A program made the position numbers and the translations under genes. The notes under the pieces were generated by a model that did not search any database, was not told the DNA's origin, and saw nothing but the letters and a program-made list of their open reading frames with translations. From NCBI RefSeq assembly GCF_014639315.1, contig NZ_BMFY01000004.1, positions 248,001 to 312,000 on the forward strand: 64,000 bases of DNA, written 5' to 3'. Numbering within the stretch: the stretch's first letter is position 1; each line of letters starts with the position of its first letter. Source of the DNA: Sediminivirga luteola. GTDB lineage: Bacteria > Actinomycetota > Actinomycetes > Actinomycetales > Brevibacteriaceae. Shown piece after piece: positions 641 to 3,625 of the stretch.

Positions 641-1537
641 TCAGCCGGCGGCGCGTTCGGCCGTCAGGACCACGTTCTCCAGCAGCAGCGCCCGGGTCAT
701 GGGGCCCACTCCCCCGGGATTGGGCGAGATCCACCCGGCGACGGACGCCACCGCCGGATCCACATCGCCCACCACCCGGGATCTGCCGGTCTCGGGGTCG
801 ATCCGGCGGCTGACGCCGACATCAAGCACGACCGCTCCCGGCTTGACCGCCTCGGGCCGGACGATTCCCGCGGACCCGGCCGCCGCCACGATCACATCCG
901 CCTGCCGCAGCAGGGAATCGAGGTCGCGGGTGCCGGTGTGGGTGAGGGTCACCGTGGCGTTGTGCTCGCGGCGGGTGAGCAGCGCGCCGATGGAACGGCC
1001 CACCGTCACGCCGCGGCCGATGACCACCACATGCGCCCCGTCCAGTGAGATCCCGTGCCGTCTCACCAGCTCGATCACCCCGCGCGGCGTGCACGGCAGC
1101 GGCGTGGTGATCTCCCTGCTGGTGTTGAGCATCAGCCGGCCCAGATTCATCGGGTGCAGCCCGTCGGCGTCTTTCTCGGGCCGGATGCGCTCCAGGATGG
1201 CGTCGGTGTCGATCTGCGCCGGCAACGGCAGCTGCACGATGTAGCCGGTGCAGGCGGGGTCCTCGTTGAGCTCGTCGATGACCGCTTCCAGCTCCGCCTG
1301 CGAGGCATTGGCCGGCAGATGCCGCCGGATCGATTCGATGCCCACTTCGGCGCAGTCGGCGTGCTTGCCGTTGACGTACCAGGTGGAGCCGGGGTCGTCG
1401 CCGACGAGCACGGTGCCCAGGCCCGGCACGATCCCTCGAGTCTTGAGCGCGGCTACGCGCTCGCGCAGTTCCTCCTTGATGCGTGCGGCCGTCTTCTTCC
1501 CGTCCAGTACCTGCGCGGTCGGTGTCTGCTCCGCCAT
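641..1537 (-). CDS. folD: Bifunctional methylenetetrahydrofolate dehydrogenase / methenyl-THF cyclohydrolase FolD
   Basis: 298 residues, the usual FolD length. It interconverts 5,10-methylene-THF, methenyl-THF and 10-formyl-THF in the cytosol using NADP. The protein starts [15 protein letters not shown] and shows the family segments YVNGKHADC (catalytic Lys), [18 protein letters not shown], the NADP-binding [10 protein letters not shown] and the C-terminal [11 protein letters not shown]. The ATG at 1537 overlaps the glyA stop by one base (TGATG), so translation is probably coupled. SHMT upstream makes the methylene-THF that FolD uses, so the two form a one-carbon operon, probably controlled by the riboswitch before glyA. 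Confidence 0.96.
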
Positions 1538-2817
1538 CAGTACTGCTCGAGCCCTTCGTAGAGCGGGAAGTCGTCGGCCAGGCGCTGCACCCGGGCGCGC
1601 AGCGAATCCACATCGGCGGCGGCGCCCTGGGCCAGCGCGATCGCGATGACGTCGGCCACCTCGCGGAACTCGGCCTCGCCGAATCCCCGCGAGGCCAGTG
1701 CCGGGGTGCCGATGCGCAGACCGGAGGTGACCATCGGCGGGCGGGGGTCGAACGGCACGGCGTTGCGGTTCACGGTGATGCCGATCTCGTGCAGCAGATC
1801 CTCGGCCTGCTTGCCGTCCAGCTGCGAGTCCCGCAGGTCCACCAGCACCAGGTGGACATCGGTGCCGCCGGTCAGCACGCTCACGCCGGCCTCGGTAACG
1901 TCCTGCGCGGCCAGCCGTTCGGCCAGGACGCGGGCACCGTCGAGGGTCCGCTGCTGCCGCTCGCGGAACTCCTCGCTGGCGGCGATCTTGAAGGCTACGG
2001 CCTTGGCGGCGACGACGTGCATGAGCGGCCCGCCCTGCTGGCCCGGGAACACCGCGGAGTTGATCTTCTTGGCCCACTCCTGCTTGGCCAGGATGAACCC
2101 GGAGCGGGGGCCGCCGATCGTCTTGTGCACGGTCGAGGAGACCACATCGGCGTGCTCCACCGGGTTCGGGTGCAGGCCGGCGGCGACCAGGCCGGCGAAG
2201 TGCGCCATGTCCACCCAGAGCTTGGCGCCGACTTCGTCGGCGATGGAGCGGAAGGCGGCGAAGTCGAGCTGGCGGGGGTAGGCGGACCAGCCGGCGACGA
2301 TCACCTCGGGGCGGTGCTCCAGCGCGCGCTTGCGGACCAGGTCCATGTCGATCACGTGCGTGGCCGGATCCACCTCGTAGGAGGCGACGTCGTAGAGGCG
2401 GCCGGAGAAGTTGAGCTTCATGCCGTGGGTGAGGTGCCCGCCGTGGGCCAGGTCGAGACCGAGCAGCTTGTCGCCGGCCTGCGCCAGGGCATGCATGACC
2501 GCGGCGTTGGCGGTCGCGCCGGAGTGCGGCTGGACATTGGCGAACTCAGCGCCGAACAGCGACTTGGCGCGGTCGCGGGCGAGTTCCTCGGCCACGTCGA
2601 CTGCCTCGCAGCCGCCGTAGTAGCGCCGGCCCGGGTACCCTTCCGCGTACTTGTTCGTCAGCACGGAACCCTGGCACTGCAGCACGGCTCGGGGCACGAA
2701 GTTCTCCGAGGCGATCATCTCCAGGGTCCCCCGCTGGCGGGCCAGCTCGGCATCCAGGACGGCGGCGATCTCCGGATCGACCGCGCTCAGGCTGCCGTTC
2801 ATCGTCTCATTGCTCAC
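1537..2817 (-). CDS. glyA: Serine hydroxymethyltransferase GlyA
   Basis: 426-residue PLP enzyme that converts serine and THF to glycine and 5,10-methylene-THF. The PLP lysine motif [13 protein letters not shown] is present with K232 as the Schiff-base residue; the N-terminal MIASENFVP and the [13 protein letters not shown] substrate loop are also clear. The start is GTG at 2817, chosen because AAGGAG at 2826-2831 lies 8 bases upstream; an ATG five codons later (2802) is less well placed. It is the first gene of glyA-folD, and its leader carries a ZTP riboswitch. Confidence 0.97.
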
Positions 2818-2865
2818 GTGGGCGTCTCCTTACATAGGCCACAGCTGGACATCATGACCGCGCGG

Positions 2866-2954
2866 GGCCCAGGCGAACGGCCGAGCGGGTCTGCACAAAG
2901 GGGTGTCGCTCCACGGTGGTTGTGTCCCACCTTAAAACGCCAGTCACGACTGCA
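2866..2954 (-). promoter_or_regulatory. ZTP (pfl-motif) riboswitch in the glyA-folD leader
   Basis: Read on the minus strand the leader has the pfl/ZTP consensus elements in order: GTCGTGACTGGCG (from about 2951), then GTGGGA..CACAACCAC and CGTGGAGCGAC, a variable linker, and the second domain CGGCCGTTCGCCTGGGC ending near 2867. ZTP aptamers sense Z nucleotides that build up when 10-formyl-THF is short, and they commonly control glyA, folD and purH. The aptamer ends about 40 bases before the Shine-Dalgarno. I see no clear intrinsic terminator in that short platform, so control of ribosome access is the simpler guess. The class assignment is from motif recognition, not a covariance search. Confidence 0.9.
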
Positions 2955-3016
2955 GAGATCCCGCCGGCGCGGACGACGCGCCGTTGGGGCGGAACCTCTA
3001 GGGAACACAATAGCAA

Positions 3017-3047
3017 CGGCCGCCACCCGGCAATCGGGCGGCGGCCG
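3017..3047 (-). terminator. Terminator of the infA-rplQ operon
   Basis: Hairpin just after rplQ: CGGCCGCC-A-CCCG / CGGG-C-GGCGGCCG with a 5-base GCAAT loop, 12 pairs and one mismatch. On the minus strand it is followed by TTGCTATTGTG, moderately T-rich. Confidence 0.8.
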
Positions 3048-3067
3048 TCGCATGGGACGTCTGGACG

Positions 3068-3625
3068 TCAGGCCTTGGCCTCGCCGTCCTCGGTCTCCTC
3101 GGCAGTGTCTTCCGCGTCGGCGGCCTCGTCGGTCGGAGTGTCCTCCGACGTCTCCTCAGCAGCGGTGTCCTCCGCAGCGGTCTCCTCCGCCTCGTCGGCG
3201 GCCGGCTCCTCGCTGGCGGCCTTCGTCGCGGCCTCGGCCTCCTTCACGGTGGCCTGCTTGGGCGAATAGGGCTCGAGCACGAGCTCGATCACGGCCATCG
3301 GCGCGCGATCGCCCTTGCGGGGCTCCAGCTTAGTGATGCGCGTGTAGCCACCAGGACGCTCGGCCATGGCCGGGGCGATCTCGGTGAACAGCTCGTGCAC
3401 GATGCCGGCGTCCTGGATCTGCGCCAGCACGCGGCGGCGAGAGGCCAGGTCACCGCGCTTGGCGAAGCTGATCAGGCGCTCGGCCACCGGGCGGAGCCGC
3501 TTGGCCTTGGTGACGGTGGTGGTGATGGAACGGTGCTCGAACAGCTGGGCGGCCAGGTTGTTGAGCAGCAGGCGCTCGTGCGCCGGCGAGCCGCCGAGGC
3601 GCGGGCCCTTGGTAGGCGTAGGCAT
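3068..3625 (-). CDS. rplQ: 50S ribosomal protein L17 with long acidic tail
   Basis: 185 residues. The first about 120 form the usual L17 core ([44 protein letters not shown] and the VIELV strand), binding 23S rRNA near the exit tunnel. The last about 60 residues are almost wholly Ala, Glu, Asp and Thr. Such acidic tails on L17 occur in many actinobacteria; the function is unknown. AGGAGAG lies just upstream of the ATG. It is the last gene of the rpsM-rpsK-rpoA-rplQ unit and is followed by a terminator. truA, which often follows rplQ, is not here. Confidence 0.95.

Follow-up and report, generated by a model that had tools for sequence, protein, structure and literature searches.

The genes glyA and folD lie 38 nt apart on the reverse strand of the window (the whole stretch of DNA analysed, 64,000 nucleotides), and on the same strand an RNA element ends 42 nt ahead of the GTG start of glyA. 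An earlier note, which gave no strand, had read a ZTP riboswitch at 2862-2960; when the whole window was compared with 4227 families by cmscan, RF01750 (ZMP-ZTP, Rfam) was found at 2957..2860 (-), at most three bases off, covering model positions 1-86, that is, the full length. The element was also scored with R1, a covariance model from 27 actinomycete aptamers (alignment A1) which has the source-genome aptamer among its rows. NCBIfam assigned both downstream genes, and the placement ahead of two folate one-carbon genes, as read in the earlier note, was thereby confirmed. The features, all on the minus strand, are as follows.

3625..3068 (-): rplQ, the upstream neighbour (TIGR00059, 125.4 bits, cutoff 70.05)
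3013..3051 (-): terminator-like hairpin, 3' of rplQ and upstream of the aptamer (17 pairs, 14 of them GC)
2860..2957 (-): ZMP/ZTP riboswitch aptamer, RF01750, full length (cmscan, 50.8 bits; R1, of whose 27 rows it is one, 55.4 bits)
2946..2950 (-): P1 core 5' strand GUCGU, pairing with GCGAC 2909..2905 (RF01750 alignment; helix 1 covaries in 27 sequences)
2938..2941 (-): GGCG, presumed 5' strand of the aptamer pseudoknot, invariant in the 27 A1 rows (complement CGCC 2875..2872)
2915..2931 (-): P2 hairpin GGUGG...CCACC (RF01750 alignment; covariation test)
2866..2882 (-): P3 hairpin GGCC...GGCC with loop GUUCGCCUG (RF01750 alignment; covariation test)
2826..2831 (-): Shine-Dalgarno-like AAGGAG, 8 nt before the glyA GTG (sequence)
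1537..2817 (-): glyA, serine hydroxymethyltransferase, GTG start (NCBIfam NF000586, 592.7 bits, cutoff 335)
641..1498 (-): folD, methylenetetrahydrofolate dehydrogenase/cyclohydrolase (NCBIfam NF010789, 462.2 bits, cutoff 401)

The 50.8 bits of the RF01750 match stand against a gathering cutoff of 39 (E value 2.5e-5 with the window and all 4227 families taken into account), no other Rfam family reaches its gathering threshold in the window, and in the whole source genome (G000; 3.86 Mb, 45 contigs, completeness 99.17) the only RF01750 match is the one at the glyA-folD locus. Both conserved pfl modules, which the earlier note had also recognised, are present in the RF01750 alignment and in the sequence, GUGACUGGCG with P2 and GGCCGUUCGCCUGGGCC with P3, and the conserved core GACUGGCG and CGCCUGGGC is able to form the pseudoknot GGCG/CGCC. 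The complementarity of GGCG 2938..2941 (-) and CGCC 2875..2872 is itself seen in the letters, and we take the two to be the pseudoknot strands. Helices P1, P2 and P3 all appear in the RF01750 alignment, in which five non-standard pairs are marked, four among the ten Rfam pairs of P1 and one among the five of P3. Unlike the model, this P1 is non-standard beyond its five core pairs, GUCGU/GCGAC, which are contiguous and standard with one U-G among them, and the outermost P3 pair is a C-C mismatch. Over the 27-sequence alignment 95.7% of the cells in the three helices are paired as against 87.4% in shuffles, both sides of a pair have changed in 47 cells as against 16.2, and slid versions of the helices score far worse than the real placement, a comparison biased in favour of the latter because the helices had been read from these 27 sequences in the first place. 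UCUGCA 2956..2951 (-), close to the aptamer's 5' terminus, is complementary to UGCAGA 2895..2890 (-) in the P1-P3 linker; this pairing, partly formed in the aptamer-constrained fold, would lengthen P1 across a bulge. A chance resemblance with no RNA element behind it hardly needs to be reckoned with, since nothing was found in its favour, while the E value over the window and all families, the covariation of the stems and the occurrence of the element at the corresponding place ahead of glyA in related genera all speak against it. It is almost certain that 2860..2957 (-) belongs to the ZMP/ZTP riboswitch aptamer class, and by analogy with that class its ligand would be ZMP/ZTP and ligand binding would raise glyA-folD expression.

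The context is that of the class as well. The 2010 account of the pfl motif (PMC2864571) places glyA and folD among its commonest genes, describes pfl RNAs upstream of both and predicts a gene-ON role; the later proof of ZMP and ZTP as ligands is recounted in a review (PMC7266159), and expression of a Pectobacterium ZTP riboswitch-lacZ fusion is reported to require ligand (PMC10117056). The element resembles RF01750 in its full-length match, both modules, the three helices, complementary pseudoknot strands and a purine or one-carbon folate gene context, here glyA and folD. The same arrangement, an aptamer before glyA, recurs in other genera. Among 54 loci sampled without regard to gene (L001-L034 taken by search score and L139-L158 picked by us from the order-level match list), tblastn placed glyA after the aptamer in 40, purH in 13, three of which were also checked by NCBIfam and were all purH, and folD in one, L003. 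Adding the 36 full-length loci selected for their GlyA similarity brings glyA to 76 of 90, some of the loci seeming to be one genome reached twice (e.g. L019 and L047). In L003 a short ORF comes after the aptamer and ribosome binding site (RBS), and folD after that, with glyA missing between; this could be what remains of an operon from which glyA has been lost. Taken together, the aptamer in the glyA-folD leader is well supported but ordinary, its class and its context both being known already.

Within the same order RF01750 was found in 234 of 347 genomes at E 0.001, 224 of them scoring above the cutoff. In the same family its distribution is patchy, with 4 positive genomes out of 60: the source genome, the only genome from each of two other genera, and one of the 57 from the dominant genus. 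The filtering in both searches was of a stricter kind, at the expense of weak matches. We infer that this family is the Brevibacteriaceae, with Brevibacterium as the dominant genus. Of 80 named loci selected for their GlyA similarity, R1 matches 37 (L056 only partially). Brevibacterium supplies the top seven GlyA matches, at 82% identity, a value shared by a Cellulomonas and a Promicromonosporaceae MAG, and none of the 11 named Brevibacterium glyA loci gave an R1 match. Upstream of these 11 genes (L035-L041, L043, L044, L055, L061) a block TCGCTGTTARCAT was noticed in every case, 76 to 84 nt before the ATG, which is perhaps a promoter. A weak R1 search of the family (E up to 1) matched 24 of 60 genomes, the best beyond the four known loci at E 0.076. 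As far as they were read, five partial matches (model 12-44, E about 0.2) are not aptamer remnants; L118, the one inspected, reads by eye as coding sequence. Two aptamer matches before glyA, L059 1311-1391 (Cellulosimicrobium cellulans JZ5) and L069 1313-1396 (Isoptericola variabilis JZ7), lack the CUGGCG or CCGGCG core and may be variants, or products of decay, in which the 5' pseudoknot strand is missing. The single match in the dominant genus, the 11 Brevibacterium loci without one, the non-standard pairs in P1 and P3 and a score lower than in any of the 30 top order loci (56.5 to 67.7 bits, a list picked for high score) could all be read as signs that the source-genome aptamer is itself decaying, no longer switches and will disappear as it has from most of the neighbouring genus. 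But it exceeds the gathering cutoff by 11.8 bits and has kept all core letters that are identical in the 26 other A1 aptamers, and we consider such decay very improbable.

A scan of 2700-3200 on both strands gave one terminator-like site, where shuffles average 0.1, the hairpin at 3051..3013 (-), upstream of the aptamer. As this GC-rich hairpin parts rplQ from the leader, the riboswitch is probably the beginning of a separate transcript; the scan of 2700-3200 gave no consensus promoter. Between aptamer and glyA it gave no terminator-like site, which agrees with the lack of a clear terminator stated in the earlier note and sets this leader apart from the many pfl RNAs described as overlapped by terminators (PMC2864571). 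TTTT is present in 5 of the 76 glyA linkers of aptamer loci. In four Arthrobacter loci (L098, L101, L103, L107) the aptamer is followed after no more than a few bases by a run of four or five T, so that P3 itself might act there in a terminator-like structure. A 13-codon ORF (ATG ATG TCC ...) at 2855..2814 (-) spans the Shine-Dalgarno, its TGA stop lying within the glyA start (GTGA overlap). It was rejected as a leader peptide: when ATG ORFs of at least five codons with a stop touching the glyA start were counted, like overlaps occurred in 7 of 76 leaders, own included, and the peptides were unlike one another.

We argued that a riboswitch in the 5' leader of the glyA-folD transcript would sense ZMP/ZTP as follows. 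A shortage of 10-formyl-THF would let ZMP/ZTP accumulate and occupy the aptamer, the bound ligand would lock the pseudoknot (GGCG with CGCC), and glyA-folD expression would rise. Without ligand, the free strand CGUG-ACU-GGCGUUUU would pair with GGAGACGCC-CACG and so hide the Shine-Dalgarno together with part of the start; once ligand is bound, GGCG would be held in the aptamer and the RBS left more accessible. Two further features, both on the minus strand, are needed here.

2821..2829 (-): Shine-Dalgarno with spacer, GGAGACGCC, complementary to GGCGUUUU 2941..2934 of the aptamer (p 0.018 against shuffles, this locus)
2837..2840 (-): GGCC, possible invader strand, pairing with the P3 3' strand in the minimum-free-energy fold

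The predicted folds of the leader agree with this scheme. The pseudoknot strand, GGCG(UUUU) when free, is complementary to the Shine-Dalgarno region GGAGACGCC, and in the minimum-free-energy fold this strand, together with the bases beside it, is paired to the Shine-Dalgarno, to the spacer and to part of the start. In folds that leave out pseudoknot and ligand, imposing the aptamer raises the unpaired fraction from 0.52 to 0.68 for the Shine-Dalgarno and from 0.35 to 0.51 for the GUG, at a cost of about 11 kcal/mol (-56.2 to -45.5) with pseudoknot and ligand uncounted. On paper, these predictions would make a coherent ON switch. The aptamer class is shared with the pfl ZTP riboswitch of Clostridium beijerinckii, a transcriptional ON switch in which, as reported (PMC10085676), an invader strand displaces P3 and the pseudoknot so that a terminator forms. 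Like that invader, a downstream strand is predicted here to pair with the P3 3' strand and free the pseudoknot strand; unlike C. beijerinckii, this leader has no U tract, and the freed strand is predicted to pair with the RBS and not to end transcription.

Comparison with shuffles and relatives gave a different picture for the RBS pairing. At the own locus the real pairing value is reached by 1.8% of 1000 shuffles (p 0.018, weakly significant), while in the family relatives none is significant (L002, p 0.28; L003, 0.555; L004, 0.702) and across 42 representatives the pseudoknot strand shows no trend towards complementarity with the RBS (mean z -0.12, se 0.15). Those are 42 of 43 representatives, L069 having been dropped for want of an anchor, and in them the mean z of aptamer segments against linker or RBS runs from -0.25 (se 0.16 to 0.17) to 0.55 (se 0.11). 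The P3 and L3 segments are less complementary to linker or RBS than shuffles are, and the L3/P3 3' strand is not above shuffles against the linker (z 0.32). Against its own RBS the locus gives z -2.63 for the pseudoknot strand and -2.35 for the P1 3' segment, these two of ten values standing out uncorrected. The duplex of the pseudoknot strand with its own RBS has an energy of -16.1 against a mean of -13.7 (sd 3.1), and 58 of 220 RBSs predicted in the source genome pair with the aptamer strand as strongly or more so; these were drawn from 20 genome stretches and the window (the stretch overlapping the window being cut to its first 8 kb), and their genes were predicted by a simple codon-position GC filter that perhaps included the own glyA. 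Shine-Dalgarno accessibility in the own leader is 0.52 with the real aptamer, 0.75 with the aptamer removed and 0.47 on average with shuffled ones, 11 of 20 of which cover it as much or more. In 73 distinct leaders (of 76 with glyA; 20 shuffles each; pseudoknot and ligand outside the folds) no general occlusion was seen, the values being 0.465 with the aptamer, 0.422 without and 0.422 shuffled. The real aptamer thus leaves the Shine-Dalgarno slightly more open than shuffled ones on average, and lies below its own shuffled mean in 34 of 73. ACGCC occurs within 14 nt of the start in 12 of 76 glyA riboswitch leaders and in 5 of 220 own-genome RBSs (18-nt window), but the 76 leaders are not independent (43 clusters at 80%) and the windows differ, and we therefore give this enrichment no weight.

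Since the RBS pairing is not general and is matched by other RBSs and by shuffles, the case for translational control rests mainly on the missing terminator. The earlier note had suggested such control; the anatomy and the lack of a terminator-like site fit it, but none of the computations shows a conserved structure sequestering the Shine-Dalgarno. Failure to find such an occluding structure across relatives would suit a genuine ZTP riboswitch with transcriptional output, in which Rho, for instance, would end transcription in the leader or early in glyA and Shine-Dalgarno access would play no part. The studied ZTP riboswitches of C. beijerinckii (PMC10085676) and Thermosinus carboxydivorans (PMC7337938) are described as acting on transcription, and a 2026 covariation study models ZTP expression platforms from terminator-bearing sequences (PMC13273304). 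The 2700-3200 scan, with no terminator-like site between aptamer and start, counts against this transcriptional output, which we consider rather unlikely here. A translational output is the likeliest because no intrinsic terminator was found, and we hold it with some confidence; that the element is a ZMP/ZTP-sensing riboswitch raising glyA-folD expression, most likely at translation, we hold with good confidence. More specifically, but only tentatively, the RBS might carry a decoy of the pseudoknot partner, ACGCC beside GGAG taking the place of the L3 CGCC. One aptamer strand would then be common to the ligand-bound pseudoknot and the helix covering the Shine-Dalgarno, a reading that we consider rather unlikely. 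Equally speculative is the suggestion that this decoy may be a lineage-specific platform, met in the source genome and L002 (both GGAGACGCC), in L003 (GGAGAAACGCC) and in some Isoptericola and Cellulosimicrobium loci. None of the listed literature titles and abstracts treats a translational ZTP riboswitch of an actinobacterium, a statement that concerns those titles and abstracts and not the printed literature as a whole.

As a result of the analysis, glyA-folD in the source genome can be annotated with a well-supported regulator, and, if true, the RBS decoy would be a translational counterpart to the transcriptional ZTP switches studied so far; neither would greatly surprise a specialist. For the family, the results suggest that the source genome has kept a riboswitch which most of the searched genomes of the family's largest genus lack.
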